20,513 nucleotides of DNA, taken from a virus. The DNA lies in the IMG/VR virus record IMGVR_UViG_3300028844_003003, positions 1 through 20,513 of that record. One strand, 5' to 3'. Made by a program: the position numbers and the translations under genes. Below, piece by piece: positions 3,189 through 17,843 of this stretch. The notes beneath the pieces were generated by a model. That model saw nothing but the letters and a program-made list of their open reading frames with translations, ran no database searches and was not told the origin of the DNA. Position 1 is the stretch's first letter; each line of letters begins with the position of its first letter.

Positions 3189-4107
3189 TGATGGCTCCTT
3201 TTAAAAAGTTATTCCAATGATTTCCAATATACTTCCAATCGTAAAATCGCTTGTAATATTCTTGTTGAAATTTAAGTGGGTTAGTTAGATCTTGTGACAG
3301 CATTCTTTTAGTCTGTAAAATACATTCAGCTAGTTGTAATGCTAGTTTAGGTTTATTCTGTGTATAAGGAATATAGATTGGAAACTCACAACAAGTTTCT
3401 GGTAAGGCGCCGAGATCCGTGGTTATTAAAATCTGACCTGCTGCTAATGATTCCATAGCAGATATACAAAATGTTTCTTCCCAAATACTAGGGAAACAAT
3501 TAACATCATAATCTTTTAATTTACTGACTAATGTTTTGTGATCACAGTAACCCATGTAATTAACATTAGGCATGTTCTTAGCTTTATCATATAAAGGTTT
3601 GTACTGATCATCATTTTGTTGTTCAAATGTTTTACCGTATATAATGGTACTTGAATAAACATCTAAGGTTATATCTGGATCTTTGATTCCATCCATAGCA
3701 GCTAAAGCTATTTCTAGTCCTCTCCAAGGCGTAGAGATATAACACATCTTAATTTTTTTCTTTGGTGTAAAATCTGTTTTTAATTGTAGCTCATCATAGT
3801 CAATTGCATTTTTAATTACTGTGCATTTATCTTCAGGTATTTTAAAAAAGTACCTATACTTTTCATAACTCCAATGTGAGTTAAACACATACCAATCATA
3901 TTTAGAATGATTGTCTTTGTTTTGAAACCAAGGTGCTAAGTTAGGTTGATCGTATGAATTTTTTAACCAAAGTATATTTGGTTTTATAGGATCTAAAGGT
4001 TCTTTTTCAGGAATAGACGTCGTAATCTGTACTGAATCTAACACTCCTTGATCTGAGTATTTCTTTAAATATCCTAGTTGTATTTCAGTACCGCCTGCTG
4101 GTTGCAT
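3169..4107 (-). CDS. GT-B glycosyltransferase (GT4-like)
   Basis: The 312-residue protein shows a GT4-type layout. An N-terminal A-G-G-T-E-I-Q motif (4-10) corresponds to the GG-x-E nucleotide-sugar loop. Y-V-F-N-S-H-W-S (73-80) and V-I-K-N-A-I-D (97-103) are typical of the inter-domain region. The C-terminal Rossmann domain has P-S-I-W-E-E-T-F-C-I-S-A-M-E-S-L-A-A-G with the EX7E pair E211 and E219, followed by T-D-L-G-A-L-P-E-T (230-238). It is expected to transfer a sugar from an NDP-sugar to an unknown acceptor. It starts in TAATG with the previous gene and overlaps the next glycosyltransferase by 20 nt. The N-terminus is very short before the GG motif, as in other phage members. Confidence 0.82.
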   Translation of the reverse strand: MQPAGGTEIQLGYLKKYSDQGVLDSVQITTSIPEKEPLDPIKPNILWLKNSYDQPNLAPWFQNKDNHSKYDWYVFNSHWSYEKYRYFFKIPEDKCTVIKNAIDYDELQLKTDFTPKKKIKMCYISTPWRGLEIALAAMDGIKDPDITLDVYSSTIIYGKTFEQQNDDQYKPLYDKAKNMPNVNYMGYCDHKTLVSKLKDYDVNCFPSIWEETFCISAMESLAAGQILITTDLGALPETCCEFPIYIPYTQNKPKLALQLAECILQTKRMLSQDLTNPLKFQQEYYKRFYDWKYIGNHWNNFLKGAINVKRNK

Positions 4108-4787: not shown

Positions 4788-4951
4788 TAACTATTAAACC
4801 AAGCAAAAGCTTGATCCTCCTCTTTTGTTTCTTTCTGATAATTTGTATTTAATTGGTTCTGTAAATTTTCTAAGGCTAGATTTATCTGTCTAAAACTTTC
4901 ACTAGAAAATTCTTGTGGTGGTTCAGGTAAAAATACTTGTACTTTAGCCAT
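4787..4951 (-). CDS. small hypothetical phage protein, 54 aa
   Basis: The ORF runs from ATG 4951 (MAKVQVFLPEPPQEF) to TAA 4789-4787. Both the start and the stop are TAATG overlaps with neighbours, which is strong evidence that this short frame is translated. The middle (about residues 19-45) is Gln/Asn/Glu/Leu-rich and probably forms one long helix; the end is A-F-A-W-F-N-S. It has no cysteine and no membrane segment. Its place after gp10 and before the small beta protein suggests a tail-assembly or virion role; the function is unknown. Confidence 0.7.
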   Translation of the reverse strand: MAKVQVFLPEPPQEFSSESFRQINLALENLQNQLNTNYQKETKEEDQAFAWFNS

Positions 4952-6411
4952 TATCTTCTTCCGTCAGGTTGTATGTCAAATCTAAATTGACCAAATCTCC
5001 AACTTTCATCAGTTCCGTCATTTTCAATTTTTACTGCAGCAAGTCTTGCTCTTGCTCTTGTATCTACTTTATCTGTAGATGATGTAACTGTAAATGGCCC
5101 TAGTGGTGAGCCTACTTGTATGTTTGCTGGATAATCCCTAAGCTCTAACGTTACTTTTGCGTTACCGTTTAGATATTTAAAATCAGGTATAAATCTTCTT
5201 ACCTTAATAAAAAACTCTCCATCTCCCTGAGCATCTAAGTCAAAGTCACCTGATTTAATAAAAGCAGGAATAGCATTTATTGTTCCATCGGCTAATACTT
5301 CATTGGTGCCAATCTCTTGGTTAAATACTCTTGATGCTCCGTTAGACACCCCTTGAATAGTTGGAGTTGTTGGTGCAAGACTAGCAGAAAATTCAGTTGC
5401 AATTGGATCGCCAAATACATGAGCATCTTCATAAGTAGTTCTAGCCAGTGTGCTAGTAGTCCAAGTTTGTTCAGCATAGTTATAAGAAACTAATCTATTC
5501 ACATAACTAGAATTTGCTGTTGCATAAAACCAATATATTTCTGAATATAAACTATTATGTGATGCCATAGTAAGCTCAGAACCATTTGCAAAATTAAATC
5601 CTGGTGCACCGTCGTTAGTTTGAAATACAAAGTCTTCAACAAGTGAACCTAATGATTTAACTGTACCATCAAATACAAAGAAACCACCTGAATCTGACAT
5701 CCAATATACAGCACCGTTTGCATAAACAATTGAATGTTGACCTACACATCCACAGTTAGATCCAACCTGTCTAATACTAAATGTAAACGGTGGACCTACA
5801 AACTGCATTAAATAAGCAGATGTATCAGTAAGAATTAATATATAATCTTTTGCTTTTGCAGCACCTACAATCTTTGTACCACTATCAATTCTAAAAGATC
5901 CTGCTGTATTGGTAGAAGTTGCTGTGTAATCTGTAAGTGATTCTTGATCCGAGAACCTTATAAACATTTTATCTTGTGTAGTTGGTGATCCAATTGTTGT
6001 TTCAGTTCCAAGTACTATTAAGTGTCTATCTCTATCCGATACCATGCTCATAACTGATCGTGTAGGAGCTCCAGATAGTATAGTTGCTCTTGTAGCTACA
6101 CCACTATTTGGATCCCAAGAAAAAGTTTGACCGTTTTTAATTGTTGCGATTAATAGTTCACCATAATTATCTAATGACCATGATCCAGGGTCTAAAACTG
6201 CTTGTGAAGTTGCTCTTGGTGTACCCCAAGTCGATCCACCCCATAAAGCTGTACCCCAACCAAAACCAAATGCTTGTAGTAAGGGACCTACTTTGTAATA
6301 AGGTTTGATATCCAAAGTTCCATCATTTGTTGCTCCTGTACCCGTCTCAGCTGTTGGCATCGTAATTGTGAAGGTCGTTGTAGTAGGAGCCAACTGCACT
6401 TCAAATAACAC
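4951..6411 (-). CDS. P22 gp10-like stabilisation protein, C-terminal part
   Basis: This is the main body of the gp10-like protein. The listed start is a GTG at 6411, the only usable start in this frame, but the frame is open back to 6570 and the coding signal continues there (G-L-E-P-G-D-I-L-T-F-E-N-A-G). Family features include F-T-I-T-M-P (about 14-19), F-G-F-G-W-G-T-A-L-W-G-G-S-T-W-G-T (48-64), S-W-D-P-N-S-G (98-104) and a WD-like beta-propeller stretch with V-Y-W-M-S-D-S-G-G-F-F-V-F-D-G (235-249). The end reads W-R-F-G-Q-F-R-F-D-I-Q-P-D-G-R-R. Its stop overlaps the next gene start as TAATG. As a separate protein it would lack the N-terminal docking domain. Confidence 0.75.
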   Translation of the reverse strand: MLFEVQLAPTTTTFTITMPTAETGTGATNDGTLDIKPYYKVGPLLQAFGFGWGTALWGGSTWGTPRATSQAVLDPGSWSLDNYGELLIATIKNGQTFSWDPNSGVATRATILSGAPTRSVMSMVSDRDRHLIVLGTETTIGSPTTQDKMFIRFSDQESLTDYTATSTNTAGSFRIDSGTKIVGAAKAKDYILILTDTSAYLMQFVGPPFTFSIRQVGSNCGCVGQHSIVYANGAVYWMSDSGGFFVFDGTVKSLGSLVEDFVFQTNDGAPGFNFANGSELTMASHNSLYSEIYWFYATANSSYVNRLVSYNYAEQTWTTSTLARTTYEDAHVFGDPIATEFSASLAPTTPTIQGVSNGASRVFNQEIGTNEVLADGTINAIPAFIKSGDFDLDAQGDGEFFIKVRRFIPDFKYLNGNAKVTLELRDYPANIQVGSPLGPFTVTSSTDKVDTRARARLAAVKIENDGTDESWRFGQFRFDIQPDGRR

Positions 6412-6556
6412 ATCATCAAAATCAGTTGCTGTATAATCAGTTTGTCCTCCTGTAAATGATCCTGCGTTTTCAAAAGTTAATATATCACCTGGTTCGAGGC
6501 CGTGAGCCGTGGGGCTTGTGATTGTAACCGTAGTTGAGCCATTAGTAGTAGTGATG

Positions 6557-6573
6557 TCACAACCTGATTGTTA
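6557..6573 (-). other. frameshift site in the gp10-like gene
   Basis: The N-terminal frame stops at TGA 6559-6557. The C-terminal frame is closed upstream by TAA 6573-6571 and open from 6570 on. Continuity therefore requires skipping one base (+1, or equivalently -2) between these points, around ACA ATC AGG TTG. After the shift the frame reads G-C-D-I-T-T-T-N-G-S-T-T-V-T-I, which fits the repeat-like beta domain expected next in this family. An assembly or sequencing indel, a real mutation, or +1 recoding at the AGG codon are all possible. Confidence 0.7.
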
Positions 6574-6895
6574 ATGTAGATTGTGCTAATGATGTATCAA
6601 ATGGAGTAATGTCATAATAATCATCACCATCGTATACATATAAAATTTTATTTGTACCAAAAGCTATGTATCTTCTGCCATCTAAATCAGCCCAACTATG
6701 TGAATCTCTTGCAGCTCCGACAAGTTTTTTGTTCATTATTTCTTGCCATCCACCTACTTTTTCAGGCATACCATATCTAAATCTAACAAAGTCCCCATCA
6801 ACCCATTGGTTCTCAGCCCCTGAGTCGGATGCTTGTTTGTTAAATCCTGGTGCAAATTGTACTTTTGTTAATGGCATACTTGGATTATACACCAT
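6557..6895 (-). CDS. P22 gp10-like stabilisation protein, N-terminal part (frame broken)
   Basis: The translated N-terminus M-P-L-T-K-V-Q-F-A-P-G-F-N-K-Q-A-S followed by W-V-D-G-D-F-V-R-F-R-Y-G-M-P-E-K-V-G-G-W is the hallmark of phage DNA-stabilisation / tail-accessory proteins of the P22 gp10 kind (PF11134-like). These close the tail channel after packaging. The more likely start is the internal ATG at residue 7 (6877), where family members begin; no clear ribosome site precedes either. The frame ends early with TGA at 6557-6559 after S-T-L-T-I-R-L. The rest of the protein continues in another frame (4951-6570), so this is the first part of a gene of roughly 640 codons. Confidence 0.75.
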   Translation of the reverse strand: MVYNPSMPLTKVQFAPGFNKQASDSGAENQWVDGDFVRFRYGMPEKVGGWQEIMNKKLVGAARDSHSWADLDGRRYIAFGTNKILYVYDGDDYYDITPFDTSLAQSTLTIRL

Positions 6896-6919: not shown

Positions 6920-7243
6920 CTATTTTGGTAATATTATATTCCAATCTAGCTTAGAAATTAAGTCCTCTAATTGAACCTTCTTTAAATTATTAACCTTCAA
7001 ATACTCAATTAATTCTTCCATATCAACAATAATCCATTGATCTTTAATATCAAAAACCATTTTATCGGCCTTAGAATTAAAAAATCCTCCTTTAGTGTTA
7101 TTTTTTAAAGGTCTTAGATCAAATTTTAATAACTGATTTGATTTATCTTTTATAATACCTTCTATATCCCAACATTCTTTTTTTCTTTGTATGGGAGTAG
7201 CAATATTAACCTGACTTAAGTTACGTTGAAATTTATTATACAT
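6920..7243 (-). CDS. unrecognised 107-aa protein at the end of the island
   Basis: I do not recognise this protein. It begins MYNKFQRNLSQVNIATPIQR, has a charged middle (D-L-R-P-L-K-N-N-T-K-G-G-F-F at about 42-55), then two likely beta strands K-M-V-F-D-I and W-I-I-V-D-M leading into a Leu-rich helix E-E-L-I-E-Y-L and a Lys/Leu tail. It contains one Cys, no signal peptide and no membrane segment. The strand-D-strand-helix order faintly recalls small nuclease-like folds but no catalytic set is clear. It overlaps the preceding oxygenase by 28 nt and shares the island's AT-rich, Lys/Asn-rich make-up, so it probably belongs to the same acquired unit. Confidence 0.6.
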   Translation of the reverse strand: MYNKFQRNLSQVNIATPIQRKKECWDIEGIIKDKSNQLLKFDLRPLKNNTKGGFFNSKADKMVFDIKDQWIIVDMEELIEYLKVNNLKKVQLEDLISKLDWNIILPK

Positions 7244-7713
7244 CTAGTTCCATTAGTAGGTTGCTCTGCAGTATGCCATAGGGAACCATCAAAAGTAATC
7301 ATTCTTCCTTGTTTAGGAGTAATTCTTTTCCATTCTTTTTTATTTTTAAAAATAACAGTATCCCCATCAGAATCTTTTACATAATAAATATATACTTGAT
7401 GTGGTTTTTCGACATCTATGTGTGGAGGATCTTGTTTATTTTTAAGTAGCTTTGGATTTAATGGTAATTGCACAAACATTCTAGCACAATCTACATTACC
7501 TTTTATAATATCTTTAAAAATATTTAATACTTCTGCTTGTTTTGTTTGGATCTTATCGTCCAATATAAAATTATGATTAAAAGCAGGACAATAATCTTTA
7601 CTACTTTTATCAGTAATATTATTCATATACCATAGTGGCATCGCAGATGAGAGTAATATATTTTTTAACCACTCTTGTTTTTCTTTCGAAAGAGCTCGCT
7701 CTATAACTTTCAT
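7216..7713 (-). CDS. small 2OG-Fe(II) oxygenase
   Basis: This 165-residue dioxygenase has a full active-site set: H98-x-D100 in P-P-H-I-D-V-E, H147 in S-L-W-H-T-A-E, and R157 in G-T-R-C-I-I-N-F-N. The strands V-Y-I-Y-Y-V-K-D (107-114), D-G-D-T-V-I-F (116-122) and G-R-M-I-T-F-D-G (136-143) match short phage oxygenases. It is the ninth and last oxygenase of the island and the only one after the tail-associated protein. Its sequence layout is nearest to the 166-aa protein at 11437-11937. Its end overlaps the next gene by 28 nt. The substrate is unknown. Confidence 0.8.
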   Translation of the reverse strand: MKVIERALSKEKQEWLKNILLSSAMPLWYMNNITDKSSKDYCPAFNHNFILDDKIQTKQAEVLNIFKDIIKGNVDCARMFVQLPLNPKLLKNKQDPPHIDVEKPHQVYIYYVKDSDGDTVIFKNKKEWKRITPKQGRMITFDGSLWHTAEQPTNGTRCIINFNVT

Positions 7714-7735
7714 AAAAAGTTTAAAATTTATTTAA

Positions 7736-8224
7736 TTATTCTGCAGTCCAAGTCAGAGTTTCAGGATCCCAAATAAAAAGATTAGTAGGAGTTGAGTTAT
7801 CCATACCTTTCCATCTTAAATTATCTTCGTCCCACATAATTCCGTATGGAAGTTCAACACCACTTACTGTGTAAGTTTCAACAGTTGGGAATGGAACTGG
7901 TGCATCCCACGTATCGTCGTCTTGTAAAGTCCATGATGCATAAGGTTGCGCTGGAATAAATTTATCCCCTTCATAGTCATAAATGTCTGAAGTCGCAGCA
8001 AACTTTCCTCTTAAACCATCTTTAAAAGTTTGTCTCCAAGTACCACCTTTGAACCAATTAGTTACCCATGTTTCTCCATCGGCATGTCTAGGGTTATCAA
8101 CTAAAGGTCCATCTGCAGTTGGTATATCATTTCCAACAACAACAGTGTTTTGAACTTCCCAATGTTGACCACCTTGATCAAAAGGTCTGTTTCTTAATTC
8201 AATTCGTGCAAAATATTGTGCCAT
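7736..8224 (-). CDS. tail-fibre-associated virion protein family, 162 aa
   Basis: The protein reads MAQYFARIELRN at the start and contains W-R-Q-T-F-K-D-G-L-R-G-K-F-A (about 62-75), Y-D-Y-E-G-D-K-F-I-P-A-Q-P-Y-A-S-W-T-L (82-100), W-D-A-P-V-P-F-P (106-113) and a C-terminal W-D-P-E-T-L-T-W. This layout (…R.nyA..G..Yd...d.FippkPy.SWtLde…W.apvpyP) belongs to a family common in marine T4-like and T7-like phages, where it lies among tail-fibre genes. It has a clear AGGAGA site, less AT-rich DNA than the oxygenases around it, and its own promoter candidate. It is a virion-type protein embedded inside the enzyme island. The exact role is unknown; capsid/tail surface or fibre maturation are possible. 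Confidence 0.68.
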   Translation of the reverse strand: MAQYFARIELRNRPFDQGGQHWEVQNTVVVGNDIPTADGPLVDNPRHADGETWVTNWFKGGTWRQTFKDGLRGKFAATSDIYDYEGDKFIPAQPYASWTLQDDDTWDAPVPFPTVETYTVSGVELPYGIMWDEDNLRWKGMDNSTPTNLFIWDPETLTWTAE

Positions 8225-8234
8225 AATTTCTCCT

Positions 8235-8264
8235 ATTATATAACGGCTTGTTCCATCATGTCAA
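8235..8264 (-). promoter_or_regulatory. candidate sigma70 promoter with full consensus hexamers
   Basis: On the minus strand TTGACA (8264-8259), an 18-nt spacer and TATAAT (8240-8235) match the sigma70 consensus at all twelve positions. The elements overlap the last codons of the DUF6445-like gene and lie just before the ATG (8224) of the tail-associated protein. The expected start near 8228 would put the AGGAG ribosome site (8234-8230) upstream of the transcript, leaving a leader of only a few bases. So either the RNA is nearly leaderless, or the ribosome site serves read-through mRNA. No experimental evidence is available here. Confidence 0.5.
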
Positions 8265-8931
8265 GCCTAGTTCGAGGGGTTGATTTTACTTTAAGTTTAT
8301 TAATAAAGAATACCATGGTCAACCTGTCCTCACCAGGTTTAGTCCATAGATTATCTGCGGCATGCCACTGGCTTCCGTCAAATGCTGCTAATGTATTATA
8401 TATATTTTTAAAAGTATGTGTTTTTACAAACTGTTTTCTTAAATAGTTATACTTTTGAGTATATATCTTTTCGTTGTATTTACCACGCAAATAAAGATCT
8501 TCTTTAATTTTAATACAGGTTTTATTTCTTACAGGTTCTTTTTTTAAAGTATAAAGACTTGTACCTGACTCAGGGAAACTGTTTTTATTTAAATAAATAA
8601 TACCACCTAAAGCTCCAGCGTCTCTATGTATCCAACCTTTATTTCTTATGTCATCTTTCGATTTAGAAAAAGCTTTTGATTTGTGGAAAAAAATATAAGT
8701 ATTAGAAAATTCTAAACCTCTCATGTCCTCATAATATAAAGATAGTATCGACAAAATAGTTCTATTAAATAGTTCTTTATCTATATTGTAAAGATTATCT
8801 GTTCTTACTCCTGGCCATGAACCATCTGTTTTGTTTATATTAGTTTTGTAATCTAGTTTTTTCGAATACTTTACTAATTCGTCGGGATCATTAAAAAAGT
8901 TGTTTACACTAGTTATTGGGAAAAAATTCAT
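8236..8931 (-). CDS. DUF6445-like 2OG oxygenase-fold protein
   Basis: The 231-residue protein has N-terminal F-F-N-D-P-D-E-L-V-K-Y (12-22) and P-G-V-R-T-D (40-45), typical of DUF6445-like proteins. W100-I-H102-R-D104-A-G is followed by G-G-I-I-Y-L-N (109-115) and G-T-S-L-Y (123-127). The distal site is F-D-G-S-Q-W-H190-A-A, with R203 in E-D-R-L-T-M-V-F-F. The set H102/D104/H190/R203 fits an Fe(II)/2OG oxygenase. An AGGAC ribosome site lies 5-6 nt before the ATG even though the start is inside the upstream gene. In bacteria, as I recall, DUF6445 genes often neighbour tryptophan-halogenase homologues, so this pairing may be functional. A perfect promoter consensus overlaps its 3' end. Confidence 0.75.
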   Translation of the reverse strand: MNFFPITSVNNFFNDPDELVKYSKKLDYKTNINKTDGSWPGVRTDNLYNIDKELFNRTILSILSLYYEDMRGLEFSNTYIFFHKSKAFSKSKDDIRNKGWIHRDAGALGGIIYLNKNSFPESGTSLYTLKKEPVRNKTCIKIKEDLYLRGKYNEKIYTQKYNYLRKQFVKTHTFKNIYNTLAAFDGSQWHAADNLWTKPGEDRLTMVFFINKLKVKSTPRTRLDMMEQAVI

Positions 8932-9541
8932 CTTTGTCCTTTTTAAACTCTGAGGGTAAACCTACCATAGGTCTTGTATCAAATTTTTTTGTTGATGTAA
9001 TTTCATTATAATGCAGAAATACTTGACTTGAATTATCCCCCGTAAACTCTTCCCTGTAATGTTCCATCTTATCTCCTTTATACATTAACAGATCCCCCGC
9101 CTTTAAATTTATTTTTATACCTGCCTGCGCTACTCTACCTGAAGCATCAAGGTATATTGGCCATTCGTCACCACCTAAATGTAAAGTTGCTGATATAGTA
9201 CATTCTTCTCTGTCGGTGTGTCTCGCTAAAACATCTCCGTTTTTATAACGCCTAGCATATGAATATTGTTCAACTAAATCAAAACCAGATTTTTCTTCAA
9301 TCTTATCTTTCAACAGAACTAGTAAAGTTTCATAAGCAGGATCTCCATAAACTGAATACGTATTAGGTATTTGTCCGTCATTCATACAACCCCAACTATC
9401 GTCATACGGAGATAAAAATCTAGTTTTTTGTAAATAATCAAAAGCCTGTTTTCTTATTTCCATGTAATTATAAAGAAAATTACACAGCTCTTTATCAATT
9501 GCTTTTTTAATAACTAAAAAATTATTTTTTTTAAAACTCAT
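8909..9541 (-). CDS. 2OG-Fe(II) oxygenase-like protein
   Basis: The 210-residue protein has Y-S-Y-A-R-R-Y-K-N-G-D-V-L-A-R-H-T-D-R-E (93-112), giving H108-x-D110, then S-A-T-L-H-L-G (117-123), W-P-I-Y-L (127-131), L-K-A-G-D-L-L-M-Y-K-G (146-156) and M-E-H-Y-R-E-E (159-165) with H161. The final strand S-S-Q-V-F-L-H-Y-N holds Q173 and H177 where other members have an Arg or Lys 2OG contact, so R163 or another basic residue may take that role. This is a distinct oxygenase subgroup that I have seen in marine microbes, but I cannot name the family. It overlaps the next gene by 23 nt. Confidence 0.72.
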   Translation of the reverse strand: MSFKKNNFLVIKKAIDKELCNFLYNYMEIRKQAFDYLQKTRFLSPYDDSWGCMNDGQIPNTYSVYGDPAYETLLVLLKDKIEEKSGFDLVEQYSYARRYKNGDVLARHTDREECTISATLHLGGDEWPIYLDASGRVAQAGIKINLKAGDLLMYKGDKMEHYREEFTGDNSSQVFLHYNEITSTKKFDTRPMVGLPSEFKKDKDEFFPNN

Positions 9542-9543
9542 TT

Positions 9544-10059
9544 TTAATCTTCATTAATTTTTTTAAAATCTTTAGTAAACCAAGTGGCTAATATACCTCT
9601 TTGTCCTTTTATTATTTCTGTAACACCATGTAAATTATCACTTTTAAAAATTAATGTAAAGCCCTTTTTAGGTGTGTAACTTTTTTTGCCTACAAAAGTA
9701 TTACCTCCCTCAAAGTCATTATTTAAATATGTAACAGCGCTAACATATCTATGCTTTAAATAATCTAATCTATTATCGATATGCGCTTCCATACTTTTGC
9801 CTTTGTTCCAAAGAACTAAATCTGCAAAAGCAGGGTAGACTATTTGTTTATATTTTAAAGAAACCATTATACTTAATTTTAAAGTATAGTTTTGTATTAA
9901 TTTATTTATCTCTCTGTCTTTTATATCATCTAAAATTATATTATTATTTTCAAACCAAGGTCTTATGTTACCTTTTAAAAAAGTACCACTAGTATTATTT
10001 TTTAAATAATTATAAATTAAATCACAATCTTTATCTGGTATTAATCTAATTAAACTCAT
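9544..10059 (-). CDS. 2OG-Fe(II) oxygenase, P4H-like
   Basis: This is a 171-residue prolyl-4-hydroxylase-like protein. H93-x-D95 lies in E-A-H-I-D-N-R, H144 in S-D-N-L-H-G-V, and R154 in K-G-Q-R-G-I-L-A-T-W, so the metal and 2OG site is complete. The middle block Y-L-N-N-D-F-E-G-G-N-T-F (111-122) and P-K-K-G-F-T-L-I-F (130-138) are standard for the family. The ATG lies inside the end of the halogenase gene (14-nt overlap), making translational coupling between halogenase and this oxygenase likely. Three nucleotides separate its stop from the next gene. It is more like the 187-aa protein at 13196-13759 than the others, but with Asp instead of Glu. The substrate is unknown. Confidence 0.82.
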   Translation of the reverse strand: MSLIRLIPDKDCDLIYNYLKNNTSGTFLKGNIRPWFENNNIILDDIKDREINKLIQNYTLKLSIMVSLKYKQIVYPAFADLVLWNKGKSMEAHIDNRLDYLKHRYVSAVTYLNNDFEGGNTFVGKKSYTPKKGFTLIFKSDNLHGVTEIIKGQRGILATWFTKDFKKINED

Positions 10060-11434
10060 GTCTTACTCTTGTGAGCCATTCTTTGTGGGTTATAAAATTT
10101 TTAGTATTTTTATATTTAATAAGACTTCGTTGTTTCAATTGAGCTGCAAGCATATTATATTGTTTCTTTATATTTTTTACATTAATTAATCCTAAGCCAT
10201 GCATGACAACAATATAGTGAGGATCCCTAAATAATAAGTATTGAGTATCATTAAAATCTTCTCTTATAGGTAATCTTGTTTTAAATAAGTCTAGCCTATC
10301 TTTTAAAGAATCAGGAAATTTTTGTTCTCTCCAAAATTTTTCTTTTCTATTAGTAATGTAATGCATAGAAATAAAATCTCTTATATTTAACATTATTTTT
10401 TCTATAGTTTCGTTATATCTATCTATTGTCTTTTGGTTATAGTTTGAAAGATAATGACTTAATAAATACGCAGATTGTATACTTGTACCTATAGAACTTG
10501 CTTCAAGAGGTTCTACAAAATTAGCACTTAGACCTACAGCAAAACAATTTTTTATCCACGATTTATCGAGATAGCCAGGTGTAAATTTAATTTGTTTTCT
10601 AACTTGTATTTTATGTTTAAGTTTTTTTTCAACTTCTTCTTGAGCTTGAGTTTCATTTATTATGTTGGAATCATATATGTATCCATTACCATGCCTGCCC
10701 CAAACAGGGATATTAAACATCCAACCAGATGACATAGCTGTAGCAGTCGTATAAGGATTATAGTTATTTAAATCTTTTGTAGGAAAAACAATTGCTGAAT
10801 TAACTTTTAAATATTTACTAAAATCTATCCATTTGTTTTTAAAGTTATTAATTAAAACTCTTCTAAATCCTGTGCAATCTATGTAAAAATTACTTTTATA
10901 TTTTTTGTTTCCCTTAATAAAATCAATTCCGTCTTTATTAAGTTTTACTTGTTTAATAGTATCTTCTTCAATCGTAACACCTCTTTCCATACATTTCTTT
11001 TGAAGGTATTCATTTAATTTAAAAGTATCAAAATGGAATTGGTTTACTGGTGTTTTATCTTCTGGATTTATTTTTTTTGATAAGTAATCTTTGCCAAATA
11101 CACCATTGTTTACAACATAATCAAAATAGCCTAAATGCTCTTGTCCAAATTTTTTATCAAAATGCACTGTATGTAAATAATCTTTTTTACCCCAACCTTT
11201 AAAATAAATTCCAGATTTTAAAGTACAATTACATTCTCTTATAACTTCATTATAGTCTAAACCACACCAACCCATAAAATCTATCCAATGCTCTGTACTT
11301 CCTTCACCAACACCGATGATGTCTATATCTTTTGACTTTATAATTTTTATATTAATATTTTCCTGATACTTTGATTCTAAAATTAAAGCTGTAACTAAAC
11401 CTGCAGTTCCTGCGCCTACTATAGTTATTTTCAT
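10046..11434 (-). CDS. flavin-dependent tryptophan halogenase-like protein
   Basis: The 462-residue protein carries the FAD-binding start MKITIVGAGTAGLVTA (GxGxxG at 7-12) and a second G-V-G-E-G-S motif (41-46), then the family lysine context T-L-K-S-G-I-Y-F with K73 as the candidate catalytic lysine. The halogenase signature W-x-W-x-I-P appears as W238-M-F-N-I-P243, with Phe in place of the second Trp. The F-V-E-P-L-E-A-S-S motif (306-314) matches the conserved EPLE segment. Known members use FADH2, O2 and chloride or bromide to halogenate tryptophan or other indoles. No flavin reductase is in the window; the host's would be needed. At 462 residues it is shorter than PrnA/RebH (about 530). 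It overlaps the next oxygenase by 14 nt. The natural substrate is unknown. Confidence 0.85.
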   Translation of the reverse strand: MKITIVGAGTAGLVTALILESKYQENINIKIIKSKDIDIIGVGEGSTEHWIDFMGWCGLDYNEVIRECNCTLKSGIYFKGWGKKDYLHTVHFDKKFGQEHLGYFDYVVNNGVFGKDYLSKKINPEDKTPVNQFHFDTFKLNEYLQKKCMERGVTIEEDTIKQVKLNKDGIDFIKGNKKYKSNFYIDCTGFRRVLINNFKNKWIDFSKYLKVNSAIVFPTKDLNNYNPYTTATAMSSGWMFNIPVWGRHGNGYIYDSNIINETQAQEEVEKKLKHKIQVRKQIKFTPGYLDKSWIKNCFAVGLSANFVEPLEASSIGTSIQSAYLLSHYLSNYNQKTIDRYNETIEKIMLNIRDFISMHYITNRKEKFWREQKFPDSLKDRLDLFKTRLPIREDFNDTQYLLFRDPHYIVVMHGLGLINVKNIKKQYNMLAAQLKQRSLIKYKNTKNFITHKEWLTRVRHEFN

Positions 11435-11436
11435 TT

Positions 11437-11937
11437 TTAACCCTTGTAATAATTAAAGTTTATAACAACTCTAAAAGGATCACCAGTTTTATGAGTTACT
11501 GCCTTGTGGTAAGTTGTAGAGTCAAAAGTAACCATTCTATTTTCTTTGGCTTTTACTTTTTTTTCATTGTTTATTTTAAAAATAGTTGCACCTCTATCAG
11601 TCAAATAAAATAGTGATGTTGTTGCGTGTTTTATTTTCCCTGTATCAATATGAAAAATATCATCAACCTTGTTGTTGTAAAACGTTAAATTAGCTTTTTC
11701 TCTAATAATAGCACTTACTTTTAATTTTTTTCTTATAGGATCTAACAGTTTAAACCATTCACTGTTGGGTGTGTTGTTGTCATAAAATAGATGTGTAAGT
11801 TGTCTATCCCCCTCGTTAGGTTTTGTTTTACCATTTTGAGCAAACCAAGCAACTTTTGTGCCTAGCATTACATCTTTTATTTCTTGATAAACTTCTTTGT
11901 GTAAAAAGTTATCTATTATTTCTATTTTATCTTTCAC
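11437..11937 (-). CDS. small 2OG-Fe(II) oxygenase
   Basis: This is a compact 166-residue dioxygenase with the complete motif set: H96-x-D98 in I-F-H-I-D-T-G, H144 in T-T-Y-H-K-A-V, and R156 in P-F-R-V-V-I-N-F-N. Strand blocks T-S-L-F-Y-L-T-D (107-114) and N-R-M-V-T-F-D-S (133-140) match the short oxygenases frequent in marine T4-like phages. The start is GTG (11937), 3 nt after the previous stop, with no strong ribosome site, so translation is probably coupled. It resembles the 165-aa oxygenase at 7216-7713 (…-R-M-I-T-F-D-G-…-H-T-A-E) more than the others. It immediately precedes the halogenase gene. Confidence 0.8.
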   Translation of the reverse strand: MKDKIEIIDNFLHKEVYQEIKDVMLGTKVAWFAQNGKTKPNEGDRQLTHLFYDNNTPNSEWFKLLDPIRKKLKVSAIIREKANLTFYNNKVDDIFHIDTGKIKHATTSLFYLTDRGATIFKINNEKKVKAKENRMVTFDSTTYHKAVTHKTGDPFRVVINFNYYKG

Positions 11938-11940
11938 TTT

Positions 11941-12531
11941 TTAATCTACTTGGTTAGGGTTAATTCTAAAATTATAAGCTAGTGAAATTCTTTCTTCTTT
12001 ATCTTTTTTCATTTCTACACAATGATGAAGAGAAGATCTAAATATAAGAAGATTACCTTGAACAGAATTAAAATAACAATTAGGACTTAGTAATCTTGTT
12101 TGAACATCATTTTCAATATTATATAATCCTCTATCTTGTTGAAAACCAATTCTTGGTGAAGATGTATTTGATTTAAGAACATATATTACAGATATATCTC
12201 TAGACGGGTGACAATGAAATTCTTGAAAATCATGTTGTTTATAAACATTAAACCAACCTTCTTTAAAAATAATTTTTTGTGTGCTATTTAATTTAGTTAA
12301 ATACTCATACACTTTTTCATAAATTATATTATTAATTAATTTAAATTTAGGATCGTCACATATGTTATGGGTATGACACGTTTGGTATAATTTTGAGATC
12401 CAATCATTCTCAATATTAGGAGTCTTCTTTTGTATTTTTTTACAAACAGGAACTATTTTTTTTGCTATTTCATTATGGTTGGGTAAAATCTCTTGTCCTA
12501 TTAATGTAGGAAACCATGACTCAATATTCAC
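11941..12531 (-). CDS. 2OG-FeII_Oxy_5-like (PF13759-type) oxygenase
   Basis: The 196-residue protein starts with W-F-P-T-L-I-G, typical of this family's N-terminus, which supports the GTG start at 12531. The first metal motif is H106-C-H108 within F-H-C-H-P-S-R-D-I-S-V-I-Y-V-L; the distal ligand is H169 or H170 in F-R-S-S-L-H-H. The 2OG-binding arginine is R181 in E-R-I-S-L-A-Y-N-F. It is broadly similar in layout to the preceding 222-aa protein but clearly diverged (different lengths and loops), so it is not a recent tandem duplicate. Three nucleotides separate it from the gene before and three from the gene after. The substrate is unknown. Confidence 0.75.
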   Translation of the reverse strand: MNIESWFPTLIGQEILPNHNEIAKKIVPVCKKIQKKTPNIENDWISKLYQTCHTHNICDDPKFKLINNIIYEKVYEYLTKLNSTQKIIFKEGWFNVYKQHDFQEFHCHPSRDISVIYVLKSNTSSPRIGFQQDRGLYNIENDVQTRLLSPNCYFNSVQGNLLIFRSSLHHCVEMKKDKEERISLAYNFRINPNQVD

Positions 12532-12534
12532 TGT

Positions 12535-13203
12535 TTACCTCAAAAGTTCAACATTAGGGATAGCTTGTATGTTCCAATGTATAAATCTAAATGGTTCATA
12601 GCCAAGATCCACACTAAATAAGTGAGGTAAATAAGAAGGGAAGAACATCATATGACCTGGTTCAACTTGATAATGCACTTCAGGACTTCCGTAAGTAATT
12701 TCACCTTGTTCTTTTAAAGGCAAGCCATTCATAAGATGACCTGATCTTGGATCTTGAAAAATAGGTTTAGAAGTAAGTTTACTTGCCTTTAAAAAATAAA
12801 AACCAGATATATGACCATTCCAATGTGTGTGTAAAGTATGATGACCACCCCCTGCTTTAGCAAATTCTTGAACCCAACTTTCAGTTAAAACTGTATTAAA
12901 TTTTGTTAAATCATAACCCATTTCATTCAATAAATTATGACCAGTTTGAGTAACATAGTTATGAAACTCATCAAAGTTTTTTTCTTTCATTAAAGTTGTA
13001 GAATGAAAAACAGCCCCCATATCTTTTTTGTTACCATACTTTTTATTCTTTTCATCTATATCTTTCATGATAAATTTTTTTGCTTGCTTAATATAAGGTT
13101 CGGAATATCTATTTAATTCATCTACAAATTCTGGAGCTTTAGCATGCCAAATTGGACTTGGAAATATTTCATACCTATCTAATGTTTTTGGAAATTTATT
13201 CAT
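12535..13203 (-). CDS. 2OG-FeII_Oxy_5-like (PF13759-type) oxygenase
   Basis: The 222-residue protein follows the layout of the putative 2OG-FeII_Oxy_5 family: N-terminal I-F-P-S-P-I-W, then E-S-W-V-Q (108-112), H-T-L-H-T-H-W-N-G-H-I-S-G-F-Y-F (122-137), F-Q-D-P-R (149-153), and P-G-H-M-M-F-F-P-S-Y-L-P-H (182-194). R206 in the F-R-F-I-H-W-N strand is a candidate 2OG contact. The near metal motif reads H125-T-H127 rather than H-x-D; I believe H-x-H is normal in this family but its metal chemistry is less certain. H194 is the distal ligand. The ATG overlaps the previous gene by 8 nt. It is a different subfamily from its two upstream neighbours. Confidence 0.75.
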   Translation of the reverse strand: MNKFPKTLDRYEIFPSPIWHAKAPEFVDELNRYSEPYIKQAKKFIMKDIDEKNKKYGNKKDMGAVFHSTTLMKEKNFDEFHNYVTQTGHNLLNEMGYDLTKFNTVLTESWVQEFAKAGGGHHTLHTHWNGHISGFYFLKASKLTSKPIFQDPRSGHLMNGLPLKEQGEITYGSPEVHYQVEPGHMMFFPSYLPHLFSVDLGYEPFRFIHWNIQAIPNVELLR

Positions 13204-13759
13204 AATTATACCACCCTGTTACTATATATTTTTCATGTTTATTTGTTATTTGACTTTTGTGAACGTGAGTAAAATCAACTGGCCATATTAAAGTCAATCC
13301 TTTTTTTGCAGGAACTATAATATCTTGATATTTAAAAATAGTTCCACCATCTTTTACATTATTTAAATAAGTCATAAAGACTAAAAGTCTATTTCTAAAA
13401 TCTACTCCCTTTCTTTCAAAATGAAAATTAGGAAAACCCTCACCTTTTTTATAGTGTTGAATATTATAACCAGGTGAAGCGACATTAAATCTTCCCACAT
13501 CTTTTAATTCTGGATACATTTCAATATATTTTTCTAAACAATTTTGTAACTCAGCTCTATAATTATTAAAAGGATTAAAAAAGTTATCATTACCTACACG
13601 AACGTCAGTAGAATTTTTCATATCATTTTTTTCTAAACTATATTTAGTTTTTGTAAACTCAGGTGTTTTATTGAAAGTTTCTATAATTTCATCACATATT
13701 TTAGGATTTATATACCACCCACCTATAAAACAGTTTTTTTCAAATAAATGTTTTTTCAT
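13196..13759 (-). CDS. 2OG-Fe(II) oxygenase with H-x-E metal motif
   Basis: This is a 187-residue P4H-like protein. The expected metal site is H113-x-E115 in N-F-H-F-E-R, with Glu replacing the more common Asp; H165 or H167 in F-T-H-V-H-K is the distal ligand. The 2OG-binding residue is probably K177 in the H-E-K-Y-I-V-T-G-W strand. The core Y-L-N-N-V-K-D-G-G-T-I-F (131-142) followed by P-A-K-K-G-L-T-L-I-W-P (150-160) matches phage P4H-like proteins. The start is an ATG inside TAATG with the previous gene, and its end overlaps the next gene by 8 nt. The overall fold assignment is secure; substrate and activity are unknown. Confidence 0.8.
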   Translation of the reverse strand: MKKHLFEKNCFIGGWYINPKICDEIIETFNKTPEFTKTKYSLEKNDMKNSTDVRVGNDNFFNPFNNYRAELQNCLEKYIEMYPELKDVGRFNVASPGYNIQHYKKGEGFPNFHFERKGVDFRNRLLVFMTYLNNVKDGGTIFKYQDIIVPAKKGLTLIWPVDFTHVHKSQITNKHEKYIVTGWYNYE

Positions 13760-14337
13760 TATTTAAATCTAGGTCCTTTCATCCAACAAACAAGACTATG
13801 TCTTACCCCCTTAGTTATTGGAGCTACTTGATGATATAAATTAGAAGGAAATACAACTACTGCTCCTCTATTTTTCATAAAATCTAATTTAATTTTTTTT
13901 GTTTGCTCAGGTTCAGGGTGAGGTACATTTACTAAAAAATCACCTCCTTCAAATTCTTTAGGATCTGTTAAATTAATACAGATTGATAGCTTTCTTATTC
14001 TGTCCTTTTCACTACCTTCAATTAAATCTTTGTGCCAACCATAAAATTGATTTAAACCATATCTTGTATATTGAATAGCTTCCGCCTCTTCTAAATCAAA
14101 ATTATAGCCCCCTTGACGATTAGCTGTGTGAATAAACTTTAATATTTCTTTATAAATCCATCCCTCACTCATCCAAATAACTTCGGATTTTCTTAAAGGA
14201 TTTAATTGTTGAACAGTGTCGTTGCCTGTTTTACCTTTTCTTTTATTTAAGCTTTTAGAGAATCTTATAACATCATCACAAAATTTAGTTCCTAAACCAA
14301 AATCCCAATAATAATATATGTGTTTAAAATCGTCCAC
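13759..14337 (-). CDS. 2OG-Fe(II) oxygenase, PKHD/prolyl-hydroxylase type
   Basis: This 192-residue protein is a double-stranded beta-helix dioxygenase expected to use 2-oxoglutarate, O2 and Fe(II) to hydroxylate a substrate. The facial triad is visible: H102-x-D104 in Y-G-W-H-K-D-L, and H169 in S-N-L-Y-H-Q-V. The 2OG-binding basic residue is R179 in K-G-V-R-H-S-L-V-C-W. F-E-G-G-D-F (129-134) is the usual turn of prolyl-4-hydroxylase-like folds. The start is GTG at 14337; an in-frame TAA lies 2 codons upstream and no good ribosome site is visible. It is the first gene of the island, and its stop overlaps the next start as TAATG. The substrate is unknown; protein proline is only one possibility. 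Confidence 0.85.
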   Translation of the reverse strand: MDDFKHIYYYWDFGLGTKFCDDVIRFSKSLNKRKGKTGNDTVQQLNPLRKSEVIWMSEGWIYKEILKFIHTANRQGGYNFDLEEAEAIQYTRYGLNQFYGWHKDLIEGSEKDRIRKLSICINLTDPKEFEGGDFLVNVPHPEPEQTKKIKLDFMKNRGAVVVFPSNLYHQVAPITKGVRHSLVCWMKGPRFK

Positions 14338-14382: not shown

Positions 14383-15312
14383 CTAATCAAACGTAACGCA
14401 ACCAGATACTACAAATTTAAGTACTGTAGCAGCACCTGCTGTGATAATAGAATTACATCCTGGTGTTACCGCTATTTTACCTGGTTTACAAGAAGTTGGA
14501 AATCTTAAATAAACTGCACCGCTAGCTCCAGTTGAAACACACGCATTACCACTTCCTCCACCGCCACCGCCTTGGTTAGCTGTAGGTATAAAAGGTGCAC
14601 CTAATCTAGCAGTTGGGGCGTTTGCGCCTCCATCTCCTCTTCCGTTACAACCTCCATTATTGCAGTTTCCCTGACCGCCACCACCGCAGCCGTAGTTTCT
14701 ACAAGTTCCGTCTATATTTGATACGTGACCATTTCCGCCTGATCCAATTCCACCAACACCACCGACTTGGCCTGCGCAACATCTTCCGCCACCGCCACCG
14801 GCTCTAAATCTTGCTGGAGGGTTTCCAATTGGTCCTGATGTACCTGCTCCTGGATTACCATAACATGAACCAGCCCCACCACTTGTAGGACCTCCGTTGT
14901 GGTTACATCCACCACCGCCACCGGATCCACCGCCTGGGTTTGGTGCTGCAGCTCCTGATCGAGCTCTTCCATTTCCACCGCCACCGCCACCGACGCTGAT
15001 AGCTGAAGGCTCACATTTAAATGCTATAGATGTTGAGCCAGAAGTTCCGGGACTTCCGATAGTACCCCCTGCTCCAACTTGAATTGAGATTGATCCACAA
15101 TCAGTATTTTTAGTAATACTAGAAGTTCCTGGAGCATTGTAAGAATAGTGAACTCCCCCGGCTCCGCCGCCGCCTCCGGTATCACCTGTTCCTCCACCGC
15201 CACCGCCGCCGATGACCATAAAATCATATGTAATACAACGTGGTCCGCATACGAAGGAAGTTCCTCCAAATCCTTTTGTTGATCCTGCTGCAAATGATCC
15301 TAATACTGGCAT
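14383..15312 (-). CDS. Gly- and Cys-rich fibre-tip protein (probable adhesin)
   Basis: The 309-residue protein has long glycine blocks (residues 35-53, 108-113, 127-135, 172-176, 209-213, 248-253) set between short Asn/Ser/Pro loops. The start of the block, FMVIGGGGGGG ... GGGGGAGG, and the tail GASGAVYLRFP resemble Gly_rich_2-type phage fibre domains and polyglycine-II sandwiches of gp38-like adhesins. It has about 16 cysteines, unusual for a phage fibre, several paired closely (VCGPRC, RCC, C-R-N-Y-G-C, C-N-N-G-G-C). A strong AAGGAGG site precedes ATG 15312. It is the last fibre gene before the oxygenase/halogenase island. Receptor binding is inferred from composition and position. Confidence 0.7.
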   Translation of the reverse strand: MPVLGSFAAGSTKGFGGTSFVCGPRCITYDFMVIGGGGGGGTGDTGGGGGAGGVHYSYNAPGTSSITKNTDCGSISIQVGAGGTIGSPGTSGSTSIAFKCEPSAISVGGGGGGNGRARSGAAAPNPGGGSGGGGGCNHNGGPTSGGAGSCYGNPGAGTSGPIGNPPARFRAGGGGGRCCAGQVGGVGGIGSGGNGHVSNIDGTCRNYGCGGGGQGNCNNGGCNGRGDGGANAPTARLGAPFIPTANQGGGGGGSGNACVSTGASGAVYLRFPTSCKPGKIAVTPGCNSIITAGAATVLKFVVSGCVTFD

Positions 15313-15331: not shown

Positions 15332-16405
15332 TTATGCAAATACAACTTGAGCTGCTAACGCTGTAAACGTTGCGTCTCCAGTTTTAATTATTGTATAAGT
15401 ATAAGCGTCTAATGAGTTAATATTTCCTGCAGCTGGCGCTGTTCCACCTTGCCATTCTGGTGTAATACTTGATCCATCAACTTGAACAGCTGAGTTGTAA
15501 TAAGCAGTTCCACCTTGTTTAACAATGTGAGCTATAGTAATAGATTCTCCAGTATCCATAATTGAGTTTAAAGTGTTTGATCCATCACCTCTAATATTTA
15601 ATGTCCAGTTTCCTGAAGCATCTGTAGTAAAGTTCCACACAGCTTGTGTAAGAACATCATAGTTGACTGTTCCTGTAGCTGCTGTTGCCTCAGATGTAAC
15701 TTTTTCAGCGACACCTTGAATTTTACCTTGTCCATTGAAAGTTGTTCTTCCAATACCTTTAGGTGTCAAATTTAAATCAATATTTGTATCACCACCTGTT
15801 GCGGATAAGTTAGGAGCATTTCCTGTAGCTGCATTGGTTGCAGTCATTTCGTTTACAGCAGAAGCTGTAGTTGCAAATTTGATTTGTTCGTTGTCATTCT
15901 CATCATTAATGGAATTACCACTATCAATTAAAATATTGTTTCCGTTTGCATCTAAATCACCACCTAATTGAGGTGTAGTATCTTCAACTAAATCTTTCAT
16001 AAAGAATACATCAACAACATTTGTACCGTCAGAAAAAACTAAAACTGTTTTACCTTCTGGAATTGTAACACCTGTACCTGATACAGTTTTAATAGTTAAA
16101 GTGTTTCCTGATCTTGTAGTACTGTCTGCAACGATATAAGTTTTTTCAATTCCGTCTGGAACATTTACAACTCTTGTGCCTGCTAAAGTTCCTGTTAAAT
16201 TAAGAACCATGTTTCTAGCGTTTGATAAAGTTGCGTTAGTCATAGCTAACGTTACATCTGCTGATGCAACATCAATAGCTTCATAACCTGCAATCGCTTG
16301 TTGTACTAAGTTTAAGTTTGTATTTGTTTTATCGCCCCAAGTACCAGAGTTTTCCCCTGTTACCATCAGCTCTAATTTTAAATCTGTTGAATAACTTGAT
16401 GCCAT
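15332..16405 (-). CDS. tail fibre protein
   Basis: The first 44 residues carry a conserved marine-phage fibre N-terminus: YSTDLKLELMVTGENSGTWG, followed by N-T-N-L-N-L-V-Q-Q-A-I-A-G-Y-E-A-I, thought to anchor the fibre to the tail. The remainder is beta-rich and Gly/Thr/Asn-rich, with D-T-T-P-Q-L-G-G-D-L-D-A-N-G-N-N-I (about 142-158) and N-L-T-P-K-G-I-G-R-T (about 212-221). The latter pattern is found in many phage fibre shafts. The C-terminal 90 residues look like a separate globular beta domain. An AAGGAT site precedes the ATG. It sits between the Trp/Gly-repeat protein and the Gly-rich adhesin, forming a receptor-binding module. Confidence 0.8.
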   Translation of the reverse strand: MASSYSTDLKLELMVTGENSGTWGDKTNTNLNLVQQAIAGYEAIDVASADVTLAMTNATLSNARNMVLNLTGTLAGTRVVNVPDGIEKTYIVADSTTRSGNTLTIKTVSGTGVTIPEGKTVLVFSDGTNVVDVFFMKDLVEDTTPQLGGDLDANGNNILIDSGNSINDENDNEQIKFATTASAVNEMTATNAATGNAPNLSATGGDTNIDLNLTPKGIGRTTFNGQGKIQGVAEKVTSEATAATGTVNYDVLTQAVWNFTTDASGNWTLNIRGDGSNTLNSIMDTGESITIAHIVKQGGTAYYNSAVQVDGSSITPEWQGGTAPAAGNINSLDAYTYTIIKTGDATFTALAAQVVFA

Positions 16406-16445: not shown

Positions 16446-17843
16446 TTACGCCGCCTTGTCAACAACCGTCCAAGTAGGACTTGTTCCAGGGTCGACTAGC
16501 TCCCATACGTTTAGTCCAATTATACCAGTAGATGTGGTCATTGTCACTCCCGTAGGGAAAGCCTCTACACTTAAACCAGCTGTTGGAACGCCCATTGTAG
16601 TTGTTAATTCTATACCTGTAGGACTAGCTATTGTAACTGCTTCAGATGTTTCATCACCTAACGTAAGAGTCAATTGTTGACCAGAAGCTACAATATTTGC
16701 GTCTGCAGTAATAGATATTGCATTTACTGTAGTATTTAATTGAACACCTGTTATATCTGTATCAGGAGCAGGATCCACGGTTCCTTCATCCGCAGTCATT
16801 GAGATATCAACAGTAGCCTGACCCCATAGTTGTTGACCCCATTCAATTGTTGAACCCCAACCTGGATTAAATTGTGAGCTTACAGGAACATTAACTGAAA
16901 CATCAACATCTGTGATTGATACACCACCCCATTCTGTGTTGCTTGAACCCCATGTATCTTCACCCCAAGTTTGTGTGACTGAAGAACCAATAGATAAACT
17001 CTGTCCTGTTACATCAACAAATGCCCAATCTCCTTCAGCACCCCAAGCTTCAGCACCCCAATCATCTCTACCCCAACCCTGTTCGTTGTAAGCTTGAACT
17101 GTTCCAAGAGATGTTGCGAGGCTCACACCTGAAGGCATAACATCTGGTGCAGGATCAACTGTACCTTCTGATATTGTTAAAGCGTTAAGTGGATTTTCGG
17201 ATAAGAAAACTTCTGTAGCAATTGTAATAGCTACAGAGCCGGTAGTACTATTTAATTCTTCAGCTTGTGTTATAGGTATTTCATTAAATATACCAATATC
17301 TACTGAACCTGTACCACCCCATCTTGTATTATAAGATGACCATGTATCTTGGCCCCAAGGGTCTTGGTTTGAGTCAATTGAAAAAGATGCTTGGTTTCCA
17401 CTTAAAAGTACATCACCTCTAATACCCCAAGCTTTTGTTCCCCATGTTAAAGCACCCCAACCTGTATTAATTTCGTTATCAATTGTTACTGATTCTACTG
17501 AAGTAGCTAAACTTAAATTTGATGGAATTACAGTTCCATAACCATTCCAAATATTTGAACCGTAAGTTTTTCTACCCCAACCTTCATTAACTATACCCTC
17601 AGCTGTTTCATCACCTACAGATAAAGTAAGACTATTACCTGTTGGAATTATTGTGTTGTTAAGAAGATCTCCCCAAAGATTAAAGTTCCATTGTTTTCCA
17701 CCCCAACCTATCTCATTAAAAGCTTCGGGAGTGTTAATAGAAAATGTAGGAGATTGATCACCGCCATATGAACCGTAGCCATATTCTTGGTAACCGTAAT
17801 TGGTAAGACCCGCTGACGATACCTGTACTGTAATATCTGCCAT
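16446..17843 (-). CDS. Trp/Gly-repeat virion structural protein
   Basis: This 465-residue acidic protein is built from repeated beta units. The core repeat is G-W-G-x3-W-G/N-x3-W-G, seen near residues 46-58, 89-100, 128-140, 257-268 and 328-341. A second unit is W-G-x-D-T-W-S/G-S-x-N-T-x-W-G-G (163-177 and 293-307). Further duplicates are EGTVDPAPD (226-234 and 353-361) and LTLSVGDET / LTLTLGDET (72-80 and 391-399). I count 23 tryptophans, about 5% of residues. The ATG has a GGGAGG ribosome site. It lies just before the tail-fibre gene, so a fibre or tail-surface role is likely. Similar Trp-Gly-rich proteins occur in marine myo- and podoviruses. Confidence 0.7.
   Translation of the reverse strand: MADITVQVSSAGLTNYGYQEYGYGSYGGDQSPTFSINTPEAFNEIGWGGKQWNFNLWGDLLNNTIIPTGNSLTLSVGDETAEGIVNEGWGRKTYGSNIWNGYGTVIPSNLSLATSVESVTIDNEINTGWGALTWGTKAWGIRGDVLLSGNQASFSIDSNQDPWGQDTWSSYNTRWGGTGSVDIGIFNEIPITQAEELNSTTGSVAITIATEVFLSENPLNALTISEGTVDPAPDVMPSGVSLATSLGTVQAYNEQGWGRDDWGAEAWGAEGDWAFVDVTGQSLSIGSSVTQTWGEDTWGSSNTEWGGVSITDVDVSVNVPVSSQFNPGWGSTIEWGQQLWGQATVDISMTADEGTVDPAPDTDITGVQLNTTVNAISITADANIVASGQQLTLTLGDETSEAVTIASPTGIELTTTMGVPTAGLSVEAFPTGVTMTTSTGIIGLNVWELVDPGTSPTWTVVDKAA

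Follow-up and report, generated by a model that had tools for sequence, protein, structure and literature searches.

Gene content of the window

The window analysed here is the whole stretch of 20,513 nucleotides (positions 1 to 20,513) of IMG/VR virus record IMGVR_UViG_3300028844_003003, a 20.5 kb tailed-phage fragment in which every assigned gene lies on the minus strand. From high to low coordinates it holds portal-side and adaptor genes, WG465, TF357, the glycine-rich gene GLYR, an array of enzyme genes and then the downstream tail genes, with a large tail protein, two glycosyltransferase-like genes and ejection-like genes below the array (Table 1). The array consists of nine 2-oxoglutarate (2OG)-Fe(II) oxygenases (OX1-OX9), one halogenase (HAL) and g162W. 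What is new is the partner of these enzymes: oxidative and halogenating enzymes are recurrently coupled to a glycine-rich tail-tip gene. A first-pass annotation, made by a model from the letters alone, had placed the open reading frames (ORFs) at the coordinates where we find them. Its count of nine oxygenases and a halogenase stands, but the array also contains g162W, which is not an oxygenase. The spacing that it described, 3-nt gaps or overlaps throughout, applies to most of the array (gaps of 2-3 nt or overlaps of 1-23 nt) but not around g162W, which is flanked by gaps of 11 and 22 nt. GLYR, the distinctive upstream neighbour on which that annotation did not comment, is separated from the array by 45 nt. 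Scans for promoters and terminators gave no signal greater than that in shuffled sequence.

Table 1. Features of the GLYR-oxygenase locus, with the positions of phrog_7084 genes on other contigs.
Feature	Description	Coordinates	Strand	Matches
GLYR	Glycine-rich tail-tip/adhesin protein, proposed substrate, first array gene	14383..15312	-	PF21722 Gly_rich_2 2e-10; phrog_2295 1.8e-18
OX1	2OG-Fe(II) oxygenase, prolyl-4-hydroxylase-like, core	13759..14337	-	PF13640 7.6e-15; phrog_61
OX2	2OG-Fe(II) oxygenase, HFE..H..K	13196..13759	-	PF13640 1.1e-6; phrog_61 1.2e-32
OX3	2OG-FeII_Oxy_5 family, HTH..H..R, core	12535..13203	-	PF13759 2.6e-13; phrog_81
OX4	2OG-FeII_Oxy_5 family, HCH..H..R	11941..12531	-	PF13759 9.6e-12; phrog_81 7.3e-33
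OX5	2OG-Fe(II) oxygenase	11437..11937	-	phrog_274 1.1e-38; PF13640 8e-5 (below cut-off)
HAL	Flavin-dependent halogenase	10046..11434	-	PF04820 1.7e-89; phrog_2928 2.2e-100
OX6	2OG-Fe(II) oxygenase, accessory	9544..10059	-	PF13640 1.4e-10; phrog_2297
OX7	2OG oxygenase fold, core	8909..9541	-	phrog_2954 9.5e-43; AlphaFold + Foldseek
OX8	2OG-Fe(II) oxygenase, DUF6445-like	8236..8931	-	DUF6445 8.6e-5 (just below cut-off); phrog_1644 1.2e-31; AlphaFold + Foldseek
g162W	Trp-rich, non-enzymatic; possible tail-tip assembly partner	7736..8224	-	phrog_7759 4.6e-15
OX9	2OG-Fe(II) oxygenase	7216..7713	-	PF13640 2.3e-6; phrog_274 3.5e-36
TF357	Tail-fibre-like protein upstream of GLYR (context)	15332..16405	-	phrog_31104 2.8e-41; phrog_5906
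WG465	Trp-rich structural protein, 23 Trp (context)	16446..17843	-	
phrog_7084	Gene on other contigs	L007:5822-6469; L009:4165-4821; L022:2893-3675; L024:14500-15225; L041:3456-4244		

GLYR is a 309 aa protein with 31% Gly, no Trp and 16 Cys, and it passes PF21722 (Gly_rich_2) at 41.5 bits against a cut-off of 24.3. The same family includes the S16 gp38-type polyglycine adhesins, in which a glycine-rich domain occupies the tail-fibre tip position, as proposed for GLYR. Relatives of GLYR are fused to tail-fibre trunks, and its homologues in the phages Syn10 and HTVC023P match tail-fibre families (phrog_863, 5.8e-63; phrog_972). Sequence searches with GLYR and g162W against solved structures returned no match. 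In every relative that reaches that far, the gene that comes straight after GLYR is OX1 or another oxygenase, and the place of TF357 in the gene order is conserved among relatives. Each of 12 GLYR relatives has 12-16 Cys, at least 7 of them invariant, which is unusual in phage tail proteins.

Oxygenase clusters often adjoin glycine-rich tail genes

The pairing was scored in three samples. In 80 contigs chosen by OX7 alone and scored if more than 1 kb lay upstream of the first enzyme, a glycine-rich ORF was present in all 56 loci with enough upstream DNA, and most of the 80 loci share the core order GLYR-(g162W)-OX1-OX3-OX7-tail gene. g162W was found in 51 of the 80, mostly adjoining the glycine-rich gene, and may be an assembly partner of the glycine-rich tail-tip protein; in a cluster of another group, OX7 is adjoined by the tail assembly chaperone family PF16778. 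The second sample, 40 contigs selected through the downstream tail gene and with more than 4 kb upstream, contained both oxygenases and a glycine-rich ORF in 24 cases, oxygenases only in 12, a glycine-rich ORF only in none and neither in 4 (Fisher p 0.02). For the third, 18 complete isolate phage genomes were tiled, 14 of which have oxygenase clusters and a glycine-rich ORF. Here 14 of 21 clusters lie at most 5 kb from a glycine-rich ORF, whereas shifting the positions at random would give 3.3 (p 1e-4, the lowest value that the test can return and one that overstates independence because the sampled phages are partly related). The same distance holds for 10 of 10 OX7-family clusters (2.0 expected) and for five of six halogenase clusters (0.9 expected, p 6e-4), and 12 of the 14 genomes hold at least one cluster near a glycine-rich ORF. 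The pairing was seen in podovirus-like pelagiphages, T4-like pelagiphages and T4-like cyanophages. We found no paper in the open-licence literature that links these enzymes to tail adhesins.

Families, folds and active sites of the oxygenases

All nine proteins proved to be 2OG-Fe(II) oxygenases, as the first-pass annotation had proposed, seven through Pfam (one below cut-off) and two through AlphaFold models and Foldseek. It had also allowed that profile searches might show most of the ORFs to be something else; those searches confirmed most of them as oxygenases. OX1, OX2, OX6 and OX9 score above the cut-off of PF13640 and OX5 below it, OX3 and OX4 score above that of PF13759, and iterated searches bring OX5 together with the remaining OX families. 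PHROGs divides the nine into six subfamilies (61, 81 and 274 twice each, 2297, 2954 and 1644) rather than the roughly seven suggested earlier. The reported H-x-D/E/H motif and distal His were found in every oxygenase, and the basic residue after the distal His, which had been ascribed to nearly all, in eight of nine; OX7 is without the usual Arg there. Seven of the nine have a 2-His-1-carboxylate iron site (HxD/E..H); OX3 and OX4 carry HxH..H, with HxH kept in 129 of 130 OX3 relatives and 90 of 94 OX4 relatives. PF13759/phrog_81 oxygenases thus have a three-His HxH..H..R arrangement instead of the customary 2-His-1-carboxylate.

The profile of the OX1 family hits structures of PKHD-type and prolyl 4-hydroxylases (P4H), at best with 6.9e-12. 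OX7 had no match in Pfam, and comparing the profiles of OX7 and OX8 with that of OX1 did not help; structures were therefore predicted from alignments of window-lineage homologues, and both models are confident. The OX7 model (predicted local distance difference test score, pLDDT, 82.7) matched P. putida prolyl-4-hydroxylase best (4j25, E 1e-9) and also the viral collagen prolyl hydroxylase 5c5t (2e-8), and its residues H108, D110 and H161 are invariant. For OX8 (pLDDT 84.2) the best match was human PHD2 (PHD2/P4H, E 3e-5). The collagen/EF-Tu prolyl hydroxylases (vCPH 5c5t, P. putida P4H 4j25) resemble OX7 in fold and OX1 in sequence family, at a low identity of 11-15% to the window enzymes. 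Because OX1 by sequence and OX7 by fold are P4H-like, protein substrates are indicated.

In the literature on pelagiphages OX7 appears as a "ferrochelatase", the label of phrog_2954. Its fold, which is that of a prolyl hydroxylase, leads us to reject that reading; the HxD..H set is invariant, and there is no Pfam match. Two further PHROG labels, "DNA endonuclease V" (phrog_274, to which OX5 and OX9 belong) and "minor coat protein" (phrog_1644), likewise sit on families that match 2OG oxygenases. The OX7 fold bears on the possibility that the array consists of auxiliary metabolic genes that alter how the host handles 2-oxoglutarate, nitrogen, iron or haem. The literature treats HTVC023P-type oxygenases as metabolic genes and the "ferrochelatase" as a haem enzyme, with an iron link between the two proposed in pelagiphages (PMC9599517); 2OG and NtcA signalling has been proposed for cyanophages (PMC3037559), and enrichment in seasonal phages (PMC11561400) fits as well. 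However, the "ferrochelatase" is built as a hydroxylase, consumption of 2OG poorly explains nine non-orthologous enzymes in a tail operon beside one structural gene, and the halogenase does not fit. We therefore regard a metabolic role as very unlikely.

The halogenase

HAL is a flavin-dependent halogenase homologue, as first annotated, with a match to PF04820. The GxGxxG motif, the conserved catalytic Lys and the EPLE motif (Glu) are all present; the WxWxIP motif is not matched, the sequence at 238-243 being WMFNIP, with one aromatic substitution. Searches against the PDB matched Trp halogenases at 1e-51 and VirX1 (6qgm) at 7e-34. His makes up 1.34% of glycine-rich proteins accompanied by a halogenase compared with 0.53% of those without one, and Trp and Tyr are not raised; as many residues were tested, on related sequences, the raised His is a hint only.

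Conservation and density of the array

The same gene order was recovered in other phages. The contigs L004, L007 and L009-L018, from independent assemblies, share the array order, with halogenase identities of 63-98% among order-keeping IMG/VR relatives (98, 73 and 63%). Since independently assembled contigs keep the order, the chimeric assembly that the first-pass annotation had considered is excluded. All tested array genes are under purifying selection: the ratio of nonsynonymous to synonymous substitution rates (dN/dS) was 0.05-0.33 for eight oxygenases and the halogenase, where computable, and OX6 (9544-10059) showed no synonymous change relative to its single relative. Array content differs even at 98% halogenase identity (L004 vs L007): L007 is without OX6, which is also lost in L006, and has an additional phrog_7084 gene. 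This family recurs in oxygenase/halogenase clusters of unrelated phages, often adjoining the halogenase, and is a possible partner (positions in Table 1).

The array had been called far denser than expected, but oxygenase numbers form a continuous series in which it ranks near the top. Where relatives were sampled through OX7, most have only OX1, OX3 and OX7; close relatives reach 11 oxygenases (L290), and a different group of metagenomic contigs, L020-L024 and L027, carries 8-13 oxygenases and 4-5 halogenases within the part that was read. The isolates HTVC008M and Mosig EXVC030M have 5-6 clustered oxygenases; Syn10 has nine by profile together with a JmjC_2 gene and a phrog_1644 gene, giving 11 oxygenase-like genes in one cluster. 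Eight non-orthologous oxygenases, often near the "ferrochelatase", have been described in pelagiphages (PMC9599517), and up to five, alongside prnA, in cyanomyoviruses (PMC3037559). Clustered oxygenases are thus already known and their rarity was overstated; the context is of more interest than the count. The clusters of L020-L024 and L027 are far denser than that of the window and adjoin three tandem glycine-rich genes of ~370 aa, some with a methyltransferase and some with a phage GroEL nearby.

Corresponding loci in isolated phages

VirX1 is 100% identical to CPUG_00131 of Syn10; the gene next to it, annotated as a tryptophan halogenase, encodes a separate enzyme. The two halogenase genes come after a pair of PF21722 genes with matches to tail-fibre families (phrog_863, 5.8e-63), the only PF21722 matches in the 177 kb genome, and 2.1 kb separate the start of VirX1 from the closer member of the pair. 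As in the window, glycine-rich tail-fibre genes are thus followed by halogenases (here two) and the oxygenase-like cluster. Unlike the window, Syn10 is T4-like, has phrog_7084 and the JmjC_2 gene, and has no g162W homologue by profile. The JmjC_2 family includes known protein hydroxylases, and its presence in the Syn10 cluster supports a protein target. The Syn10-type arrangement is repeated in S-RIM44, S-CREM1 and Sf-FP1.

The closest annotated relatives of the window are the HTVC023P-type pelagiphages (HTVC023P, HTVC027P, 023Pt_psg01), whose tail protein shares 47-48% identity with its counterpart in L011, one of the window's close relatives. They share with it, in the same order, a module of tail protein, glycosyltransferase-like and ejection-like genes. 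In HTVC023P and psg01 the oxygenases and the OX7 "ferrochelatase" adjoin glycine-rich tail genes, as in the window, but there are 3-5 oxygenases and no halogenase. In HTVC008M and Mosig EXVC030M a glycine-rich gene likewise adjoins the oxygenase cluster, OX7 included; HTVC008M has g162W too, and its halogenase lies 4 kb beyond. These two differ from the window in being T4-like, and in HTVC008M the oxygenases are on the opposite strand. The two glycosyltransferase-like genes (2430-4107) that follow the tail genes have counterparts in HTVC023P and HTVC027P; hydroxylated residues might be their target.

These same genes would also suit enzymes that synthesise a small molecule, such as a halogenated metabolite, or modify a host surface polymer. 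VirX1 reportedly halogenates many small molecules in vitro, going by the title of the paper that describes it. Yet the window and the relatives examined contain no synthase, carrier protein or export gene, and the cluster follows a structural gene on the same strand and with the same spacing. We consider such a pathway quite unlikely.

A proposed tail-tip maturation cassette

Collectively, these results suggest that the array is a tail-tip maturation cassette, a dedicated set of enzymes that adds hydroxyl groups, and sometimes halogens, to the receptor-binding tail tip; we assign this reading a probability of roughly 0.6. The folds, the motifs, purifying selection, the conserved order and the above-chance proximity to glycine-rich tail genes are established; we infer that GLYR is the substrate, and likewise the residues modified and the effect on binding. 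GLYR would form the receptor-binding tip of the tail fibre, and one late transcript would deliver adhesin and enzymes together. The downstream oxygenases would then hydroxylate GLYR side chains, some residues being additionally halogenated in halogenase-bearing phages. OX1, OX3 and OX7 are the core and the remaining enzymes are gained and lost; these accessory enzymes may vary the decoration and thereby change or protect receptor binding. The first-pass proposal, oxidative tailoring of a protein or surface polymer late in infection, agrees with all of these findings, with GLYR as the protein candidate; the idea that the density is out of the ordinary is not supported.

Besides the relatedness of the sampled phages, several observations weigh against the cassette. 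Trp halogenation of GLYR in the window's lineage is excluded by the complete lack of Trp in 12 of 12 members; a Trp-halogenase-like activity on GLYR would thus need Tyr, His or another residue, or act on another protein. There is no relation between the number of oxygenases and how much Pro the glycine-rich proteins contain. Some clusters lie elsewhere, one in P-SSM2 by baseplate genes and one among clamp-loader genes. The S16-type glycine-rich adhesins of enteric phages are not known to require enzymes of this kind or to undergo enzymatic modification. In the 12 of 40 related tail loci that have oxygenases and no glycine-rich ORF by threshold, many have Kelch-like repeat or small tail-collar proteins in the slot, and two have an ORF of 24-26% Gly, under the threshold used. 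In L300, L331 and L342, Kelch-like repeat proteins of ~600 aa between TF357 and the oxygenases replace the glycine-rich tip.

That oxygenases remain where a Kelch-like protein takes the place of the glycine-rich one would be expected if the enzymes targeted another virion protein of the late region (TF357, WG465, the tail protein at 4951-6895 or g162W) and not GLYR. These candidates are all same-strand neighbours, and the Trp-rich WG465 (4.9% Trp) and g162W (6.2%) would be a natural halogenase target. WG465 as a Trp substrate of HAL is unsupported, however: HTVC027P and DSL-LC04 lack a halogenase, yet their WG465 is just as rich in Trp. Moreover, with the same WG465, TF357 and tail genes, oxygenases can be missing where the glycine-rich gene is absent (4 of 40) but never where it is present (0 of 24), and T4-like phages differ in the surrounding genes yet keep the glycine-rich neighbour. 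Another virion target is therefore unlikely. The shift in content between L004 and L007 would also suit unrelated cargo at a recombination hot spot around a variable receptor-binding gene, such loci being recombination hot spots, with proximity carrying no functional meaning. Against this, nearly all of the cargo is of one chemistry, the core order is held in dozens of loci, all tested genes are under purifying selection, and glycine-rich genes of the window's lineage never occur without oxygenases. We find such accumulation very unlikely.

If the adhesin is the substrate, a role in host metabolism falls away altogether for these genes, there is no case for keeping the "ferrochelatase" label, and the question of what VirX1 modifies in nature narrows to a particular protein that can be tested. 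Tail-tip maturation would also be a new route to vary host recognition, through tail-tip chemistry instead of sequence change. We see about an even chance that marine phages carry a modular tail-tip maturation system, in which a core of protein hydroxylases, together with hydroxylases, halogenases and methyltransferases that can be swapped, creates non-standard residues in a polyglycine adhesin; VirX1 would be a member and the pelagiphage "ferrochelatase" a core hydroxylase.

Downstream of the array, the large tail protein (4951-6895) is split in the window into ORFs at 6557-6895 and 4951-6411 and is a single 654 aa ORF in L004; the split is a frameshift or assembly error in the window. The window's tail module is also carried by L345 and L346, contigs of Pelagibacteraceae single-cell genomes, which may point to SAR11 hosts.

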